Assembly (NCBI GenBank): GCA_013399875.1
Contig: VXAZ01008283.1
Coordinates: 434,001-498,000 of the forward strand
From: Gymnorhina tibicen
Lineage: Eukaryota > Chordata > Aves > Passeriformes > Artamidae
Reading direction: 5' to 3'
DNA: 64,000 bases
Shown here: one piece after another, positions 19,757-33,500 of the stretch
Numbering within the stretch: the first letter of the stretch is position 1
Layout: every line of letters starts with the position of its first letter
Position numbers and translations under genes: made by a program
The notes under the pieces: model-generated
The model's database searches: none
The model's input: only the letters and a program-made list of their open reading frames with translations
Told to the model about the DNA's origin: nothing

Positions 19757-21280
19757 TATAAAAAGCTTACTTAAAATTAAACTTGATGCAAGTTATGAAA
19801 AACCAATTTATTGGCAAATGAAACTGAGCATTCCTTCAACCATAGGTTGTTATAAAAATTTATATTTGGAGGTAAACATTTGATTGATATAGTATGTGAG
19901 AAAATAATTTTTTAACCGATAAGGGTAATCCTTTACCAATAAACCGTATTAGCACTTGTCAGATGGAATGCTGTGGTTCCGAGCGGTAACCCCCACACTG
20001 CTTCAGGCTGGAGATAATTACAAAGCTGCCACACTGATCAGGCTGGGACACAGAAGGAAATGCGATCTCACCGATGGAGTCAGCTGGTTTGGGTTTTTAA
20101 TGATTTATTTTACAAGAGCTTATACCTTGCTGTGTTAGTAAATAATTTAACTCTGGTTGTGTTTTGGGGTTTTTGTTTGTTGGTTTTCATTTTTGTTTTA
20201 AGTATTCTAAGGCCATGAAAACATGTCGTGCTGTAACTGTGTAGAAAGCTTTGTTTTTAAAGGGAAAAGAATCACACTCTTCTTTATGTAATTGAAAATA
20301 TTTTAAACTTTCCATTTTTAGCACAACAGTTTCATAACACTTCTTTTTCTTCACATTTTTCCTTTATTTGGCAATGACAGTAGTCTGCTAATCACAGTTT
20401 ACTGCACCAACTGATTTGGTAGTACAGCGCATTACGGAATGCATGTTGTATAAAGGCACTGAATGTACTTTGCCCTGTGTTTTCTGGAATATTTTCTCTC
20501 ATTTTTAAAGTTTTTCTTTCAGTGACTGTACAAATTCCAAAATGCATTGCAATGCGTACTTTTTATGCCCTAAAATCAATTCAATGTGTTTTGATGTAAA
20601 AATAGAACACTGTACTGCTGTAATAGTTGATAGATTAAAAAGGCTATAAAGTAATAGGAGCAAAGAGCAGATAATAGGGTCTCATTAAGCATCAGCAAAT
20701 GCAAGTGTCATACTTAAATCATTTAGCAATTATATACTGTACATACTGTTCCTAACTGTCTTGCAAAAAGACATATGATAGCTAGACATTAAGTCACCAA
20801 TTTCACAACAATGTCCACAAAGACATTGAAGTTCTATATAATACTACTATAACACTCTGACAATGAGAACGGAATTCATATCCAGGGATTCAGCTGAGGA
20901 CTGCATAACAAATTGTCAAGCCATGTTTTATAGTGTACACAGGATTATCTGTGAATTGTGTAGGGTCTTTTTTTCCATGCATTATACTGTATTTTCAACA
21001 GGAAACAAAATTACAAGTTGACGTTATTGTTTGTGTCAGTTCCTTTTTAAAAAAAGTAAAAATACCCAAGTTTTGAACAAAATTTGAATTTTCCATTTTG
21101 ATTCATAGTAACATACCACTTACTGTGTCATTATGCTGTGTAATGGTATTGACCTGCATATTCTCATAGCATTAACATCTGGTGGTGAGGAGCTCCGTTA
21201 CCTGTGGGTTCATAGTATGAGAAGGAGGATGTACAAGTGCTTTAAACAAACTGAAGATATAAGGGGATCGAGTTCTGTGG

Positions 21281-21518
21281 TTACACAAATGAATTCATGG
21301 CATTTACAGGAGAAGGAGCCTCAGAGCTTTCATTTCCTTCTGCAGGTTCTTTCTCTTTTTTACCACTGTATTGTCCAATAAAGGAGCCATCCTCATTGAA
21401 CTGACCATTTACACCTTCTCCATAGTCAACTAAACTATCATCACTGTCTTCTTTTTTCACAGTTCTGTCTGAAGGTGTCCGGCTTCCTTTTTTTAGAGGT
21501 TTATGGTCCTCCGCATCA
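21281..21518 (-). CDS. NRCAM: NRCAM last coding exon: cytoplasmic tail with FIGQY and NSFV
   Basis: Acceptor TGTCTCCAG at 21519 and onward; T completes the Ser codon of the upstream exon. The 79 codons (including stop TAA at 21281-21283) run [12 protein letters not shown] to AMNSFV. They contain GSFIGQYSG, the tyrosine-regulated ankyrin-binding motif of the L1 family, an acidic [15 protein letters not shown] run, and the C-terminal S-F-V type PDZ ligand. This is the most diagnostic exon for NrCAM. Confidence 0.98.
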
Positions 21519-24500
21519 CTGGAGACACAAACAAACAAACATGGAATTAACTGATGCATTATTTATTAAGACAAAATCAGCCATGCATGCAGAGTTTATG
21601 AAAAGCAAGTGTGCAACCCTATAATCCTTTAGTAAACCCACATCACATTGTAGAGACAAATCAATATGATGCAGTTCACATGAAAACATGGTGTAAGAAT
21701 GGTTTAAACAGAGAATGTCTTCAGTGGAGGGAGGAGGAATTGTGATTTCTTTTATTTTTTTTTCCCCATCGTGCATGACTTTTCAGTGGTAATACCTGGG
21801 CCCTTGGCTTGGAAGCCATTTAGATGCAACTGCAAGCATTAAGAAGTGGGTTGTAAAGTTATAAAAAAAATTTTGTTTGTTCTCCAAAGTAACGAGCTTA
21901 TGATGTGCCGTGAAGTTAGTCTGTTAAACTTCTTAATTTTTTTGACTCCTTGAAAATGAATGAAGAATGAATTTGGTTAAATGAAATATACTGATTTTCT
22001 TTACTAGTATAAAGAAAATAAAAGTGCTGCATTTCAAATAATTTGTTACATAATGCAGGCCAGACTTGCAATTTTCAACCTTACCTTTCAAGAGACCTAC
22101 ATATTCCATTAAAAGGGTGCAGAAGAAACAAATGAAAATAGCCTAAGAAGAAAAGCAAAGTCCATATCCTGATAGTGATCAGTATTTTATCAATAATAAG
22201 TTGCTCTTAAAATTGCTACAATATTTACTGTATGACAGGTAAAGCAACAATTTAGCTTACAGTAGGTAGAATTGAGGAGTTGAGCACATGCTTATTCTTT
22301 TTCATTTCTTATCAGATCCATCTCCCTACCCTACTCCATGACAATGTTCTGACAATGATGACGATGATTTGGAGGACAAGAGAAGAAGGAAAGGAAAGGA
22401 AAGAAAGGCGGGTAGAAATCTCTGTAGCAAAGTACTGTGGTCTTTCCTTTGTCAGTGGAAAAGCTGCAGCACCATCAGCATCCTCAAATAAATTTGCAGC
22501 TGTGGTAGGCTTGTATTTCATGAAATAGATATAGCTGGGCTCTTTTCAGAATCCTTTACACTGCAATTCAGTTTCAAGATGAAGATTTCAGCAGCAGCTC
22601 CAAAGCATTTTGAACTGAAACCCACTATTGCCAGCTGCACTTTTGGGTGCAATTATTTACCTTGTCTTAAACAGAACATGTGACCTTATTTGCATATAGG
22701 GTACAAAAAAAGGAACTGGTTTGAAGTTTTTATTTAGATTAGCAGCTTATGGGAAATATAAAGAAACACATATGAAATATCAAAGACACAAAATTACGTT
22801 TTACGATTTCCAGAACACTAGGCTGAATATATACTCAGCAAATTATTTTAACTCTTTAATTCCTAAACCCAAATATCTTAGTTCTTCAAATAATGCATTT
22901 TTTTTCCTAATTAATACCTTTGAACTCCCAGAGAAACCATATATATACATACATATATATATACACATATAACATAGGATGTACAAAGCCACACAGATCA
23001 TATAGGTAACCAACAAAAGCCCTGTTGAGAATCTTTTGCTAGAAAGCCATTACATCCATTTTCCATCAATCTGTTTCTCCTCATCTCATCACCATTTTTT
23101 TGTTTTGGAAGACACTAAGTTGTCACATTCTAAAAGAAGCACACCTCTAATATGCATATACTTACAGAAAAAGCATACCAGAGATTTTATCATTCTGCAT
23201 ATACACCAGAAAAAAAAGTGGTAGGAATATCTTTCTTATTTGCATGTAAGAAAAATCTTCATGCTCAAAGGACACAAAAGCAAAACCTCCGCATGTGACT
23301 GTATCAGGCTTGACATTTTAGTTATTGCTGTGTACAAGGCACGAGGATAAATGTCTGTCATTGATCTGTGCTTACTGGTGCTGCAAACATACAGGCCAGT
23401 AACATTCAAAAGACTGTACTCCAAAATTTCAAGAATCCAGCAGCAAAGTGAAAATGTTTATAACACCATGAACACAAGCAGATTACAGAGACATTACTGA
23501 AGGGAGTTCATTTTAGAAGGACTCTATATTTAAAAGGTTGAAGATGGAATTGAGTAGTTAATACTCATACACAACGTAGTTTCTCCAATGCCCTCATCAG
23601 AAGGTATTAAGGGTCATTAAAACAGGTTGTACGAGTCAAATGAAGACCAGGCCCTCCCTTTGAAATTGTAACCACTCCCAGAGAAGACCTGCTTTCTGGG
23701 TAAGACTGTTAAGGAAAGAACATTGGCATATGGTTTGTTGTTTAATTTTACGTGAATAACTTCATAATTCCTTATACCATAATACACAGATATGAAAATA
23801 AATTAAAATTGCAATTGTATCGTATTCCTATTATTCATGAATCCCTGTGCAAATATTCTAAAATATGACCCTAGCCACTGTAATTCACTAGGTTGGAATA
23901 TACATAAATAAATAATACGCGATTACTGTTTTAAAAATATCAACATTTTTGTGTTTAATCCAATGAAAAGCTAGATTTTCCTTTACAATTTAAAAAAATC
24001 TGAGTATGGGAACTTCTGCTTTGTATTGCTCTTATGGTTTTCTTATTTATATTTTTGCAAACAAGTTTATGTATAAGACAAACAATGAAGCAATACTTAC
24101 ATGGTTGGTTGCATTGTGTATATGATTTTTCTATATTTTAGTCAGGGTGTGAATTCTACTATCTCTATAATTAAAACCAAACAAAACTGCAGATTTACCC
24201 AGGAGTGTATCTGCACTGAGGTGGGCACTGGTGTGATCTGCTGGAGTCACAGCAGATGCAAACATCAAATCTGAACCCAGGGATTCCTTCATTTGTTGCA
24301 CTATATAAGTCTAGAGAGAGGTTCTGCCAGGACTCTGGCAGTGGAAAAACAAGTGGGATTATCCAGGGTGTTTTACACTCCTGGTTCAGAAAATGGAAAC
24401 ATATGCCATGGTACCATTTTTTCTGTATCAAACTGGATTTTGACTCTTAGATGAATACAGTGTTTTGTGTGAAAGAGAAATAAATTGAGGAAGAAAGAGG

Positions 24501-27500
24501 AAAAAACCAAACAAATAGGAGAAGGAGAAAAAAGCGAACACATCAACATTTTGGACAGCACTTTTGCTACCCTGGGGGTTTGAAACAGAGAAGGGGCTCT
24601 GGTGCTCTGGGGAAATGAATGTATTATCTGTTTGTTGCCAAGAAGCAAACTGTAAAAGCTGCTGAATTGCATTAGGATGAGCTATGATTCTACTTCAGGC
24701 TGTAGAATATATATTATATTGACAAAACATGGTGAAGCCATAAATTTAGATACCGTACCCACAAGGTTTGCCAACCTTGCTTACAATTGTTCATAAAGCT
24801 ATTCTAAAATGCAATCAGGATAAATCATAGTTTCTTTCAGTTTCTGTTTGTGGTTTTGCTTGCTGACTTTTATACTTACCTAGTGTAATACTGTGATGTA
24901 AAAAATAAAGTGCAAATTGGGTTGACTAAAATTACAGTGGGAAATTGAAGAAGTTTTTGAAAAGTGTAGTTTATACAGGGCATATAATTAATAGTCAGAA
25001 AACAATACTGGAAGAGAACCAAACATGAGGTGACAATGGGTATGAATTCTTTATTTAGAGCCATGGAAGTTAAGTGTAGTCAAACTTTTACTATTTTTGC
25101 TGTATAAATAAATTCCATACTAGTATCTTTTTAAGGATGAAAATTTCTCAATGAAGACTCATATGTACCAATCATTTTGATAACTACTTATATGTACCAC
25201 ATACACTTCTTTTCAGTAAAAAAATTATTTAATATTAAAGCATATTCTAAAGGCATGATTTAAATATTATACATTAATGATTGCTATTATATGAATATAT
25301 GTTTCTTTTTCTTCTTAATGAAACACATATCAAACTTGAAGCTAATTATTAAGAGATAAGAAGTAGGAAGGTAACAATAACATAAGTGCAAAGTACAAAT
25401 TTATTTGTTTTAAAAAAGTAATTCCATTTCACAAACTTATCAGTTATTGAAAGAAATATGTACCTTGAAATCTTTCTTCTTTCAACTTTTCAATTTTTCT
25501 TCCTTAGATATGGGTACATGCAGCAACCAGTCAGAATGGGGAAGACACTTTTACGATGCCTCTGCAGTCCAGCAGGCAACTAGTTCCCAACTAAACCTTG
25601 CCACATTCATAGACATGCAAAAAGACTCAATATATGGTTAGCAATATACTACTTTTCCTTATAGCATGACTGTCAGATGAAAGGCAACATGAAACAAAGT
25701 GGGTAAAGCATTCTGGGCTATGAGACACAGAAAGTGGATGCAGAAGATGAAAACTGTTGGCAGTAAATTCCTTTTTCTGTGGCCTCACATCAATAGCCCA
25801 GAAATGTTGAAGTAAAAGCAATCGGGTAAAGCCACGGAAGTACATTCCGCTATGCCTTCCCTGCACACTCCAGGAGAATCTCTGTCCCTGTACCTAACAG
25901 GTTTCTGCTCACACACCTAAATTATTAGGACTGTGCAGGTGACAAATATTTTCCCTACAAACTTATGAACTTGTATCAATCCAGACTTCAAACTATTTTA
26001 CTATTTATTTAGCTAAGACATAAGCACACCTATATTAGTTTTCTGAGTAGTTTTTCTTTAACATCTCTGTAATACTCAATCTTCAATCCTGACAGAAGAT
26101 GGAAAAACTGGGTGATTAAGATCTGGCTTTAAAAAGTAATGTGTTGAAAAAGTTGTTGTTAATCACAGAAGTATTCAAGAATTAAAACAAGAATTGTCAA
26201 AGAAATTACATGTGTGTAAATTAGAATACAATAAGATCACTGCCAAATCCAATTGGACTATTCAGTTCTTCAGGCAGTCCACTGAGATAATCTCTTGTGC
26301 TGGAAGCAACAAAGCTTAGAATTACAGTGCTGAGGCACAAATCATGGCTAGGTTCCTGTGGAAATACACCTAAGCTGCAAGTTAAGTAACTACAAGAGAA
26401 AGAAACTACTGTTGTAGTTACAAACTATATTCTCATTGTTAATCAACCCAGAACAAGAAGGAAGAGTAATATATTATCTAGCAATCCCAGAACTCTCTGC
26501 CACAAAGTCTCTCATAGCCCAGAATTTTAGGAAAAATACTCTGTGTGTCAAAATATTGAAGAAAAGAGGCAAAATAATTCACCAAAATGTGCAAATATCC
26601 TGTGTTACCAAACTAGCAATCCTACTACTGTAGTTGCCTTGTCCTGTTTATCTTCCTAAGAACATTCTGCAGACCGCTGGACTTTTGTCCTTCCCTTGTA
26701 CTTGCCTGCTTCCAGTCTTCCTACCCATGAACCCACGGGTCTGTAGCTGTCGTAACTTCTTAATTTCTCTCAATTTAGGGACCAGGAGGAAAATTTAGGC
26801 TGATTTATACACCCACACTGACCTGAACATACATCTGTGGTACTTATTCTGTTTCTTGCAGATTCTTGGTGTAGAGAATGACGGTCCGCAGTTTACTGTC
26901 TCGGTCTTCTACAACTCACAAAACCACTGAGAATGCAGTGCAGATTCCTACAGAGGCACTGTTTTCCCTTATTATGTAAAAATGAAGGAATCCATCCAGT
27001 CACGGGAACATAATGTCTGCAATCATTCCATGGTTCCTGAAACACCTGCATTTCCTCAAGCATTTCCTCAAGCATTATTTCCTTCACTAGATCAATATGG
27101 CAGAAAAATCTGATGTTGTCTGGTTCCACAGACCAGCCAACTTTCCTGCAAAAAGTATTCTCTTGGTTGTCTTGGTTGAAGTTGAGGAGTGCAAAACTTG
27201 AAACAAATCCAAGCCATCCCAAGACCACTAGGAAGCCTAGAAATGAAATGTGAAAAAACTCTCCCCCAAAACTGAGAGCTATGATTTCTCTAGAATATCT
27301 TAATTAGTCATTAAGATTTAAGTAACTTCATAATTTAAATCTTACTTTGAAACAACTAATTTTCTAAGCACTGGGTTTATTTGTCCAGAAATATTGAAAC
27401 ATTTTCATGTCTTTTACTCTTCTCAGTTCCTGAGAAACTAGGAAGCAAGTCTATGTTCTTAAAAAGTTCCTCTTGATGATCTGGTATCTCTCTGAAAGTG

Positions 27501-30500
27501 AGATGTCTTTTCGTACTTGGCATGAAATGATTGTGAGACCTTATACTTTCCCTTCCCTCCTTTGAACTTTGGAGGAGAACGCAAGGAGCTCAGACACTTG
27601 TGAGGAGAACAGGAAGAGCTTCCAACAGAGCTTCTTTTTTTCATCTGACGTAAGGAGTGTTTGTGTTCTGAGAAATCCTTCATGATCTGGACTAAGGATT
27701 CACCAAACAGCTTGCCCCCTGTGTATGGTAAAGACAGCAGTTTACATTTTAGATCTAGCAATGAGCTCCAAGGACGCAGCCATAGAGCTCTCCAGGCGAC
27801 AGTGAGGCATGCCACATTTTTAACAGTGAGTCTAAGAGAATCTTCAGCTGCATCATGGATAAAATTAGCTGCAATTTTACACAGCCTGCGTTTCCTCTGC
27901 ATGGCACCAGATGGGATCCATTTCTTTTTGAATCTGGCTCGTTCTTCCTCTAACCATATTAATAAAGCTTTAGAAGCGTAAGTGCAGTAGATAGATACTC
28001 CAAGCTGGGCTGCAACTAGCTTGAAAGATCTTTTAATTGCTTCCTCAATCTTTCTGTCAGTAGGATCTTTAGGGAGAGCATCCGTATTATCAGGCACTGA
28101 CAGTACAGAATCACCAGTAACCAATGCTCTGTCTACCTCAGGCAAGGTCCCCCACAAAGCAGCTTTATCCACTGGAAAAGGATAGAGCTTATGTAGGACT
28201 GCTGGGGCTTCATGCTTGGCTTCAGGATTACCCCAAATCCTGCAGACAAGATCTTCCACAGCTGAATGGATCGGAAGTGCATTATCTACCTTGCCTTCTT
28301 CAGAGGGGATAAGCAGTTCTACTGAAGCACATTCAGATTTGGAAGATTTTAGCATTAACACCCTCTTTATGTGTTCAAACAGGTAATTCTGATTCTCCAT
28401 GTCAAATTTACGCAGAGGATCTGGTCCTTCTGGATCTTCTGTAGGGGACTCAGATGCTGCCTCCTCATCTTCAGGGGCTGATTCAACCTCCAAAGCCTTG
28501 TCAGCCTCAGGTTTCTTCTTCACAGAAGCTGTTTGCTCTTTTAAGATGTCCATATGATCAGACTCAGAAGTCTGGGAGCTTCTCCCAGATGCTTCTAAAG
28601 GAACCAGTGGAACTTCTGCAATTGGTACCCTGGGATGCTTTACTGAATGGGATCTAGCCTGTGCCACAGACGTTATGCTTTGTCTGGCTGCTGTCAAAGC
28701 ATCCTTTAGGACAGTAGCCAGCTCAGGCAAGATTACAGCTTTCATTAGTGAATTCTTTTCAGATTCAGAGAAGTGAGTAGTAGTAGAAGGTCTTACCTTC
28801 CTGTGGCAGGAGCTCTGAGTGTCTTCTGAATCTGAGCTGCAGTCTGGGGTCTGGCTGCACCAGTGCTGGAGAGAAGAATGCTGCCTTGCCAGTGAGCCAC
28901 CAACTGAGTTGCAGCTGAGGGGTTGCTGGAAAGGGGATGGCTGTCCTGCCTGAGAATCTGAGCCCTCCTCCGACCCCATTATCTGTTGCTCAGAAGCATG
29001 ATGTCTAGAGCCATGCCTGTACTTCCATTCGTCTGATCTCTTTTCCTCTCGGCAGAGGGAAGCAGAGACAGAACTAACCCTTGTAAGCTCTGAAGACTGC
29101 CTAGCCCTCCTCCTGGTGTAGGAGGCCTCTGATCTGGTGCTGGAGTATTGATCCCCTGACCTTCTGAAGAAGTTGGATCTGTCAGATCTCACAGACTTTG
29201 CTTTGGTAAAGACAGGGTCTGCTTCAGGAGAATTGGCACAGCTACCTTTTCTTTTCTTTTCCTTGTCCAGTTTCTTTCCTGTCCAAGCAGACATGGACCT
29301 GAAGTGATGAAAAAAGTTCAAAATACTCGAATTCCTAGATCTTTCAAAAGTTACATTTTTTTTTCAAGGGAAACCCTATACCCTTTTTCCTCAAAGAAGC
29401 ACCGCATCATGTGAGGCAGACAAACTGGGAACTGAGTGACTGCAGTGATGCTGGGCTGCAGAGAGGATGGCAAGATATCTTCTGTAATCTGACTGGTTGC
29501 TGCTGCTGCCCTGTCTCTAAGAAAAAAAGAGGAAAGCCCAATATAGACTAATTACACAGAAATACATTTTAGAAAGGAGTTTTTGCAGGGTACATAGAAT
29601 TAACTCTTTCATGTGAACAAGTCTGAAAACTTGGCATGCATCTGCCCATATTCACCAGACATAAGTGAATAACTGCATTATAAAATAATTTAATAAAGCT
29701 CTTGATCATTCTTTAGATTAACTCAAGCCACTTAAATATGGAGACATTAAATCAAATCTTGCTACAGGTCACACATGAAAGCAGACTTGAATACTTAGTC
29801 CAGGCCTGAGAAAACATCTATTGTGGTCATATAATTTGTACAATTCTGTACAAAGGTCAGTTTCTGCTGCTGAATGTTCCAGCAAGAACTGTATCAAGAA
29901 TGAGTGGAGCAATAAAGGAGTATGCAAACTAGACTTCCCAGGAAAACTTATAGAGTACTTTTTTAACTCTGCTCCCAAAGGTTCCTTCACAGCTCCCCTT
30001 TTATCAGTCAAATTTAGGTAATTCATATGCACTTACAGCTGTAATAAAATAATATTCTGAACTCATTAACCTAAGAACAGAGTTAAAAGAATTATTAAGA
30101 ATTATTACGAATAAACAGAAACTACTCTTTAGCATTCAGAACTGTACATCTAGTCCTGTCAGATCAAGATCAACACTTCCCTTCCATGAAGAAGCTATGG
30201 CAACAAAGTAGATCTTTCTTGAAAAAACCTGCTTTTTCTATGTATATTTGTAAATGTCAAATCTTCGAAATAATTAAGGACTTCTACACTGCTTTTGACA
30301 CAGGAATGCACTATAAAGTCTATTAGAACACCCATGTAAAATATAATCATACTGATCTATTTAGAAAATAATAACATTATTTCTTGTACTAATCAAAAAC
30401 CAAATAAACTGCTTATTTAATAAGCTATATTCATAGTTGTTGTATGAATAGACTTGCCAAGGCATGCTTTTGATAATGCCAGATTTGGCTAGACTGCATT

Positions 30501-33500
30501 TACTATAAAGGAAGAGAGTCAGGAATAAGAGATGTGTTGCATGCTTTGAAGCTGCTTGCTATATATCTTGTACTGAAATACATGAAAGGGAGATTTGCTT
30601 TCTTGTAGGACACTCCGTCACCTCTATGTATAACATCACTTCTTTGTTATTGGATTAGATGTTAGTACTGGCAGCCATTTTAAATGCATTTGTTTTCCCG
30701 TCAACTTAACACCGGTTTGTCTTTATCAGGCTTCAGTTAAGAAATTTATTTTCAAAAATCATAATGCTCAACATAGTGCCCTAACTGAAAGGACACTGTA
30801 TCTGGCATTTGAACTATCTGAAAATGGCTTTGTAAATAAAGATTCCACACTTTGACTTTCAAACAGAAACAATTGTGTTTGAATCTGGTTTTCACCTTGA
30901 ATTACCAAACAGCTTATACCTAGCTTGGATATTTTTTTTTTTAATGGTGTGGTTGAAATGCTATTTTTAGTTCTATATAACACTGGATACAGAATCTTTG
31001 ACACAGAAAAAAAAGTTAGTCTTGAATTAATAAGTGTGATACTATATACAGTACATGTGTGACATGAACAGTGAACATGACAAACCACATCAGCTGCTCA
31101 CCTGTATTCACCAAACGTTCCATCATCTTCCTTCATAGGTTGTATTTCTGGATCAGCATGTGCATCCTCCTTTTCCTTCACTAAAATATTTAAAATAGTA
31201 ATTTTTATCATGAAACTGCAAGATGAGAAAGTCTAAGACCTTAATTTCTCAAACTGATCACATTTGGCAGGAACACGGTTTGAATAAAAACTTTTTTTTT
31301 AAATGGTGCCTTAGGCTATTACATTTTTTTTAAGAAAAAGATCTGTTAATTAGCCATAGAATTTTATTTTCATTCAAGTATAAATGACTGTATGTCATTT
31401 TGTATTAGCAGAACTTTTTCTTTCTTTCATTTCTAGCACTAAAGAAATTAGTTTAAAATTTGTTAAAAATCTACTAAAATAACTTATATTATTAATAGAG
31501 CTATTTTTTACCCAAATTTGAATAATTTAGTTCTACTTTACCATGCTCTCTATTTCTTCTTGATATTCTTCTTATACTGATTGATAAAACTGAATCAGAT
31601 TCACTTTTTTCATTGTCAGTTTGTACATTTTCTGCCTTAATTTCATGTAGTAAGACTCCAGAGAATTTAGGCATTTTGTCCAGTATTAATAATTTTCAAA
31701 ATACTAGGCATGGTTTGTTAATTTCTTCTTTTCTACAACATGATCAAGCCCAACAGAAAGTCACATACACTGGAACCTAAATTTAACACAGTTGTATTTC
31801 TTGCACATTCTGGTTTTAGGTTTAATCCTTGTTCACTGGTGGGAATAAATCCAGGCATATAACTTGCCCCTATAAAATAATAAATGTAGCACATTGATAC
31901 AGAAACCTGCTAGCACCTGAGGGGTCAGATACTTACAGATGACGTATATTCCTGTAAGCTAAGATTGTTGACAGAATAAAATAATATACTGACTTTAAGA
32001 ATTATATTTATGGTTCTTCCCTTTGCCTTTTCATTTCTGTTTTTCTGGCATCTATTCAAATCTTTCCCTTGTCTAGCAGATACAGTTATACAATCCAATA
32101 CACAATCTCTTGTCTTTTACTCTGGTAATTTCCACACTTAATTTGTGCATCATTAATTTATATGCTGTTATTTAAGAGGATATGACTCATTCCTGACAGT
32201 ACTTACTAAGTCCATAATTGCAATAACGCATAACACCTTGAGATATGTCAGGCTGCTGTAATTTCATATTGAATTAATTGATTACTTTCTACAAACCACA
32301 GGCAACCTCATGATTGCATACAAAAATAATGATGAAAAAGAGTTCATAACTTCAATTTTCATAGATTTCATAACTTCATACTTTCCATTTGTCACTACCT
32401 GTGGAACAGTACACTTGCAATGACACAAGAAATATGAAGTCACTGCTATAAACACCAGTACATACTGTTCTGGAAATCTTATAAACAGTCCAAGTCCACC
32501 TTTATATATGTGTTTGTATATGCATATGCATCTGTGCATAAAAAAATGTATACCTCACACTAATAATTCTGCAGAAGCAGAGAAAAGGACAGAATATCAG
32601 GGATCCACAAAGTAATGACAACCTTAGCATCCAACTGCCCTCTACACTTTCACTCAAAAACTCTTGTTTTACCTTCTTCTAGATGGTGGTTCACTCCAAG
32701 TGAACGTTGTGTAGTTCCAATTTTCAATGAAAAATTAGAAAACATACTTGGCCATTCCTAAATACAAAACCCCCCTTATTCTACACCTCCTCTTAGAAAA
32801 AATTATAGAAAGAACTCCCAGCCTACATGAAGGATGGTAACTTCAAATTTAGCTGCAAAAATGCAGAAGCTGAAGATGACACAGATTCTGGGAAGGAACT
32901 CAAGGTATTGGAAAAAATATAACCTATGAAGAGATTTGTCCTATGACATGCATTCTCCATACTTTAAAATAACCAGTGGCGATGATTTGGACTTTCTGAC
33001 CAAATAAATTCTAACTCAACTCATGTTAGTGGATTAAACCCATATGCACTGGATTTCAGAAAGTGGAATGTGCACTAGTGGTGATGTTTCCAACAAAGCT
33101 CAAACCTTTCTAGAGAGCTCATGCAGAGATATGACCCTCCAGGAATGAAGAAGGTCCTTCTGTTATGCTGAAATAGATGGAGGTTTTCTACCAATAGGCA
33201 GATTACTCCTGTCAAGTCCACCAAATGATAAGACTGATTTGCCATATACACAGTGTAAATGTAAACCAGCAGCAAATAAAATTTTCCAGTAAACCTGGGA
33301 TCTGTCTTAATGGGTTACCAACAGATGAGTTTTACTATCCTTGTTAAACAGCATACCTGGATACTTGCCACCCTTATTCCTCCTTATGAAGCAAACAATC
33401 AGTAAAATCAAGATCAGAAGAGCAACAGCACACATAAGACCAATGAACCATCCTTGAGTAGCGATGTCTACCTGCCGGCTCGCCATTGCTAGAGATAAAA

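Follow-up and report, generated by a model that had tools for sequence, protein, structure and literature searches.

Anatomy and conservation of a probable DIRS1 Gag-derived terminal exon of NRCAM in birds and lizards

Can the coding sequence of a retrotransposon become the cytoplasmic tail of a neural adhesion receptor? The question is raised by a stretch of 64,000 nucleotides from the songbird Gymnorhina tibicen (contig VXAZ01008283.1, positions 434,001 to 498,000; hereafter the window), in which an intron of a minus-strand gene holds a long intact frame related to the Gag protein of DIRS1 retrotransposons. The host gene is NRCAM, as identified by its canonical exons with the RSLE mini-exon, the FIGQY motif and the C-terminal NSFV. 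Gene models, junction identity, a tree and intact frames support the retention of the Gag exon as part of an NRCAM isoform, and we hold with high confidence that the locus has the anatomy and conservation of a DIRS1 Gag-derived NRCAM terminal exon in birds and lizards.

Inside NRCAM the frame forms a single large terminal exon, uninterrupted and followed by a poly(A) signal of its own. Its host intron follows the exon ending in ...DDGTFGEY and precedes the 12-nt RSLE mini-exon. The two alternative ends of the gene are built from these features:

33358..33486, minus strand: NRCAM membrane-span stretch of 43 residues, retained in the Gag isoform
31102..31180, minus strand: common NRCAM cytoplasmic exon, upstream of both tails, with its donor at 31102/31101
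29299..29320, minus strand: pyrimidine-rich stretch plus AG, the 3' splice site; records P0012 and P0014 read through it with the same translation (NFFHHFRSM)
27459..29298, minus strand: coding part plus TAA of the alternative, Gag-derived terminal exon of NRCAM, with 612 residues after a split Arg and the same join in public gene models
27376..27381, minus strand: poly(A) signal AATAAA, 78 nt past the TAA
22085..22096, minus strand: canonical RSLE mini-exon (giving YRSL), read as AG, GTCTCTTGAAAG, GTA, and skipped in the Gag isoform
21281..21518, minus strand: canonical last exon, coding part (...FIGQYSGKK...NSFV, by sequence), absent from the Gag isoform

From stop to stop the frame covers 27459-29363 (minus strand, 634 amino acids); the first exon base is 29298 and the TAA occupies 27461-27459, after 612 codons. 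The acceptor reads TTTTTTCATCACTTCAG up to the boundary at 29299/29298 and GTCC beyond it, and the upstream donor, which also serves the canonical route, reads ...GAATACAG followed by GTGAGC at 31102/31101. The AG left by the donor and the G of the exon form an Arg at the junction, Ser-Met-Ser follows and the frame stays open. An earlier note on this DNA had described both this phase and a pyrimidine-rich splice site at the exon start; the splice site is present, and the Arg-Ser-Met junction was found in public bird and lizard gene models. The note was also correct in describing a frame of over 600 codons on the strand of the gene, but it placed the frame in the intron before the last exon, whereas the RSLE mini-exon comes next. 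Of its span, 27376..29298, the start at 29298 stands; 27376 is the end of AATAAA, and coding stops at 27459.

A chance open frame was ruled out by two comparisons: 500 base shuffles of the exon gave open runs of at most 235 codons, versus the 612 seen, and on the opposite strand the longest run without a stop anywhere in the 64-kb window has 176 codons. Directly downstream of the exon lies a 136-codon open frame (26896-27303, minus strand) that is probably due to chance (PF02485, E 0.059, below the cut-off). Positions 21000-31200 were scanned for known RNA families, and none reached its gathering score.

The identity of the tail comes from its C-terminal half, and a basic cluster stands near its start:

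27675..28283, minus strand: LAP2alpha (DIRS1 Gag) domain, tail residues 339-541 (Pfam PF11560, E 2.1e-11; same place by genome search; PDB 2v0x)
29247..29258, minus strand: basic cluster KKRK, tail residues 14-17, which we take to resemble a nuclear localisation signal

The PF11560 match scores 44.2 bits against a Pfam cut-off of 25, and the LAP2alpha crystal structure (PDB 2v0x) is recovered at E 2e-11 with the single sequence and at E 5e-19 with a 93-sequence profile. The domain is also recognised in lizard-like and galliform rows. The proposed homology to LAP2alpha and DIRS1 Gag is thus borne out above the Pfam cut-off, and more strongly with the profile. In an AlphaFold model of the tail the mean predicted local distance difference test score is 44.8, and only helices at about 412-458 and 464-512 reach about 70-87; the LAP2alpha part appears helical in this low-confidence model. 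A Foldseek comparison of the same low-confidence model with the PDB gave 0 matches at E <=0.001 among 554 at E <=10. Net charge is +7 across the first 60 residues and -11 across residues 241-300, and the C-terminal end is basic. As a separate observation, the Ser/Arg-rich N-terminal 60 residues carry no Pfam match and are among the parts best kept between birds and lizards (conservation 0.66 for residues 31-60); this start of the tail may be a binding site.

Is the exon joined to NRCAM beyond this genome? A first protein search returned 92 relatives, namely 77 bird records named 'LAP2A protein, partial', one gull protein, 12 proteins at 79-94% identity and two that group with lizards. A crocodile or turtle origin for the last two (P0092 and P0093, 45-47% identity across the alignment) was dropped because the tree groups both with lizards. 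All 90 bird-like rows reach the C-terminus in frame. The 77 fragments range from passerines to tinamous and cassowary and all start at residue 157, so the first quarter of the tail is unseen in them. Their label (P0015-P0091) is a misleading name for fragments of this NRCAM exon.

A search restricted to long proteins gave 212 matches and a third search gave 226, with the best 120 listed each time. All 120 listed from the former are NRCAM gene models carrying PF11560; those listed from the latter add the lizards Sceloporus, Anolis and Phrynosoma and further birds. By hand count, joined NRCAM-Gag models come from at least 48 bird and at least 3 lizard species among the matches listed. The junction was read in all 140 joined proteins (P0094-P0233), none dropped, and GEY joins R-S-(M/I) directly in 138 of them, three lizards included. 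The residues are GEYRSMS in 134 bird models, GEYRSIS in one cuckoo model, GEYRSMSP or GEYRSMFP in three lizard models and GEYRDRAG in two Acridotheres models. All but one of the 140 end in the Gag tail; the exception, lizard P0216, ends in the canonical tail and, carrying both, is probably a wrong merge. In palaeognaths, Galloanserae and Neoaves alike the Gag frame stays open, and the absence or random decay in related birds that the earlier note had named as grounds for refutation was not found.

The two Acridotheres models (P0139 and P0140) contain one further exon:

29382..29516, minus strand: cassette exon of 135 nt, in frame, lying between GEY and the Gag exon; it is used in P0139 and P0140, open in the window and conserved in P0014

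Both models run from GEYRDRAG through this cassette and rejoin the Gag exon at SMSAW, and the idea that GEYRDRAG marks a different acceptor of the Gag exon was dropped accordingly. P0014, which stands with Penelope and Alectura in the tree, reads through the cassette stretch with 39 of 45 residues matching the window, in a frame unused by the cassette; it carries an insertion of four residues there that keeps the phase.

These data bear on the possibility that the frame is a separate nested gag gene that has a promoter and a start codon of its own (MSAWTGKK...) and whose joining to NRCAM is secondary or rare. A Met two codons into the exon is retained in nearly all birds and in the lizards, the gull protein P0009 stands alone and 77 bird records bear the partial LAP2A label, all of which would suit such a gene. 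However, acceptor, phase and junction are identical in birds and lizards, and a conserved cassette, in frame, makes up the 5' part. Moreover, in the Cuculus canorus model P0220, Ile replaces Met2 of the Gag exon. The change turns YRSM into YRSI, which keeps a YxxPhi signal (in a cytoplasmic tail, Tyr followed by two residues and then a bulky hydrophobic one), and it removes the Gag start and leaves the frame whole. That the Met is lost but the frame is not agrees with use as a fusion, in this single species, and we regard a nested gene as unlikely.

The conservation of the frame was assessed within birds, where 30-residue blocks of the Gag tail have mean pairwise identities of 0.75-0.96. In simulations of neutral decay of the exon, 0.25-0.3 changes per site led to 12-14 stops, and at every rate >=0.15 all 300 runs acquired stops. 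The absence of stops, together with the conservation of residues, speaks for selection on the frame, as far as sequence comparison can tell. It also bears on a second alternative, in which the exon mainly provides early polyadenylation, lowering canonical NRCAM, and the protein tail is of little use. The exon does have an AATAAA and would exclude the canonical tail, but a frame of 612 codons is unnecessary for such a site, and the conserved bird blocks hold 0 stops versus the number expected under decay. An early polyadenylation role of this kind is therefore quite improbable.

How old is the capture? A Gag tree was built from 38 rows hand-picked from 232 relatives, with a midpoint root for drawing. 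Palaeognaths, Galloanserae and squamates each form one supported group, with squamates outside birds; passerines, parrots, hawks and two owls are each highly supported. The overall pattern is broadly the bird phylogeny, with the deeper Neoaves forks open and Catharus placed weakly beside Corvus. Because the Gag tree resembles the bird tree with squamates outside, the capture seems to predate the bird-lizard split, about 280 million years ago. The alternative is that related DIRS elements were captured independently at the same site in birds and in lizards. DIRS elements were abundant in lizards (PMC4495291), the tails are only about 44% identical, versus 82% in the part before the Gag region, and the tree is rooted by midpoint only. 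Against this, both lineages use the same donor, the same phase and the same first residues R-S-M, and the similarity extends across nearly the whole tail, the N-terminal part included. We consider two captures at one site very improbable. In the 1.02-Gb Gymnorhina tibicen genome the protein search found one copy (7 candidates scored) and the Pfam-model search one match (2 candidates) with no other LAP2alpha match, both counts being lower bounds. The single copy found and the presence across birds rule out a recent insertion or a large repeat family. A search of viral and genome contig collections for related loci yielded no relative.

If the exon derives from a single old insertion, what is left of the element? 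An inverted repeat stands on both sides of the exon:

29426..29636, minus strand: 5' arm of the inverted repeat, a probable fossil DIRS terminal repeat (tile-pair comparison, RNA pairing)
25387..25589, minus strand: 3' arm of the inverted repeat, a probable fossil DIRS terminal repeat (tile-pair comparison, RNA pairing)

With a score of 40.2, this pair is the top one of 15,523 inverted tile pairs <=6 kb apart in the whole window; the next unrelated inverted pair scores 27.8, and 200 block shuffles reach 20.9. The arms enclose about 4.25 kb, and the cassette exon sits largely within the 5' arm. As RNA, their predicted pairing is -134 kcal/mol versus -63 +/- 7 in 200 shuffles; pairing of this predicted strength could influence the choice of terminal exon. 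From their sequence and position the arms are probably DIRS terminal repeats, and their similarity after such an age suggests that the arms are either constrained or younger. The features of a DIRS1-like source that were found are a LAP2alpha-type gag and inverted repeats around the coding region.

Several observations weigh against this account. The joined proteins are automatic gene models, not RNA reads or peptides; as far as is known, alternative gene models of such kind rest on RNA evidence. Among the matches listed, the contig-derived rows (lgn, jgi) include no joined chain, and no crocodile or turtle row appears. Two of the contig-derived rows, P0012 and P0014, read through the acceptor and are therefore genomic or unspliced, and the gull protein P0009 stands alone, with the annotation of an uncharacterised protein. 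Of 137 bird models, 37 have a changed KKRK, which speaks against a strict nuclear role; the cluster is retained in the other 100, and most of the altered models carry different basic forms. Finally, 10 flanking frames gave no match to reverse transcriptase, RNase H or tyrosine recombinase in Pfam (best E 0.059, below the cut-off), as expected for an old, decayed copy. Since no pol or recombinase remnant was recognised, the exon is called derived from a DIRS1-like element and not a member of that group. That software merely glued a transposon frame of no biological use to NRCAM is scarcely credible: every joined record is an automatic prediction and P0216 looks wrongly merged, but the frame is intact in the bird groups sampled and in lizards, and the junction is the same in 138 of the 140 models.

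We therefore return to a captured exon and ask what its tail might do. In the proposed sequence of events, a DIRS1-type retrotransposon would have inserted into the NRCAM intron, in the orientation of the gene, in the bird-lizard ancestor, and its gag, served by an acceptor and a poly(A) signal of its own, would have turned into an alternative terminal exon. The sequence shows that ectodomain, membrane span and juxtamembrane part all persist in the Gag isoform, which loses the last 79 canonical residues (including FIGQY and, at the very C-terminus, the PDZ ligand NSFV) and gains about 612 Gag-derived residues. It carries a YxxPhi signal, YRSM in 137/140 models and YRSI in 1/140. In NrCAM, FIGQY recruits ankyrin (PMC3759449, PMC12681835) and the C-terminus is a PDZ-binding stretch (PMC3759449); in L1, the RSLE exon creates YRSL, which binds AP-2 (PMC4810158). 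Mouse NrCAM takes part in retinotectal mapping (PMC3759449). From Y-R-S-M/I at the spot of RSLE and the loss of FIGQY, we infer a receptor that is ankyrin-free yet internalisable. Gag-tailed NRCAM would thus be uncoupled from ankyrin and spectrin while internalisation is still possible, and we lean towards ankyrin uncoupling as the main effect of the tail.

The helical LAP2alpha-like domain may in addition cluster the receptor. Alternatively, gamma-secretase could cleave it, after which the Gag tail would enter the nucleus via its basic signal. Such cleavage is established for mammalian NrCAM, with the fragments reported to be mostly degraded fast, and a nuclear role of the Gag tail appears rather doubtful. 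Taken together, we tentatively suggest a two-tailed NRCAM since before the bird-lizard split: an ankyrin-anchored form, and an ankyrin-free, YRSM-internalised Gag form that may oligomerise or release a nuclear, contact-dependent messenger, with the inverted repeats pairing in the pre-mRNA to help choose the tail. If true, a neural adhesion receptor has taken up a retrotransposon Gag at its signalling end.

How does this locus compare with known systems? Abascal et al. 2015 (PMC4495291) traced the LAP2alpha domain to the gag of DIRS1-like retrotransposons and showed its capture in mammalian TMPO and ZNF451. The same kind of capture had been proposed for NRCAM in the earlier note, and the LAP2alpha homology, the predicted junction in public models and the flanking inverted repeats agree with it. 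In mammals, TMPO LAP2alpha likewise has DIRS1-like gag in a single large alternative terminal exon that brings a poly(A) signal of its own, and this host-Gag fusion is under purifying selection (PMC4495291). The eutherian LAP2alpha isoform of ZNF451 has the same kind of terminal exon and the same domain, and its downstream exons are likewise skipped (PMC4495291). However, TMPO LAP2alpha is a mammal-only nuclear protein, whereas the NRCAM case concerns another gene and a cell-surface adhesion receptor of birds and lizards; ZNF451 is a nuclear zinc-finger protein that loses zinc fingers, whereas NRCAM loses its ankyrin and PDZ contacts. PEG10 and the RTL genes are also cases of retroelement Gag retained by selection, several of them active in the brain, but these are independent genes from long terminal repeat elements, while the NRCAM Gag is a receptor tail. 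No clear homology links DIRS ORF1 to retroviral Gag (PMC4495291). Within the L1 family, the RSLE mini-exon places Y-R-S-L after GEY (PMC4810158) and the Gag exon places Y-R-S-(M/I) there; RSLE precedes a canonical tail with FIGQY and the Gag exon does not, and AP-2 binding of YRSM is suggested by analogy.

In the openly accessible literature, with subscription papers mostly outside this scope, no publication was recognised that describes an NRCAM isoform with a LAP2alpha domain. Among the matches listed, NrCAM and LAP2alpha occur together in a single publication, a review on heart disease (PMC12326461). The earlier statement that no description was known for NRCAM thus stands for the literature searched, but not for automatic annotation, which already contains the isoform. 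TMPO and ZNF451 are the only captures named in the available parts of Kojima 2018 (PMC5753468), which report DIRS as not detected in birds; the NRCAM locus would nevertheless be a DIRS fossil there. It would also be a third DIRS Gag capture beside the two mammalian ones and, judging by that same literature, the first outside mammals and the first to affect a cell-surface receptor. This implies a second, Gag-derived tail on a neural adhesion receptor of birds and lizards, one without the ankyrin and PDZ contacts that are basic to models of NrCAM.

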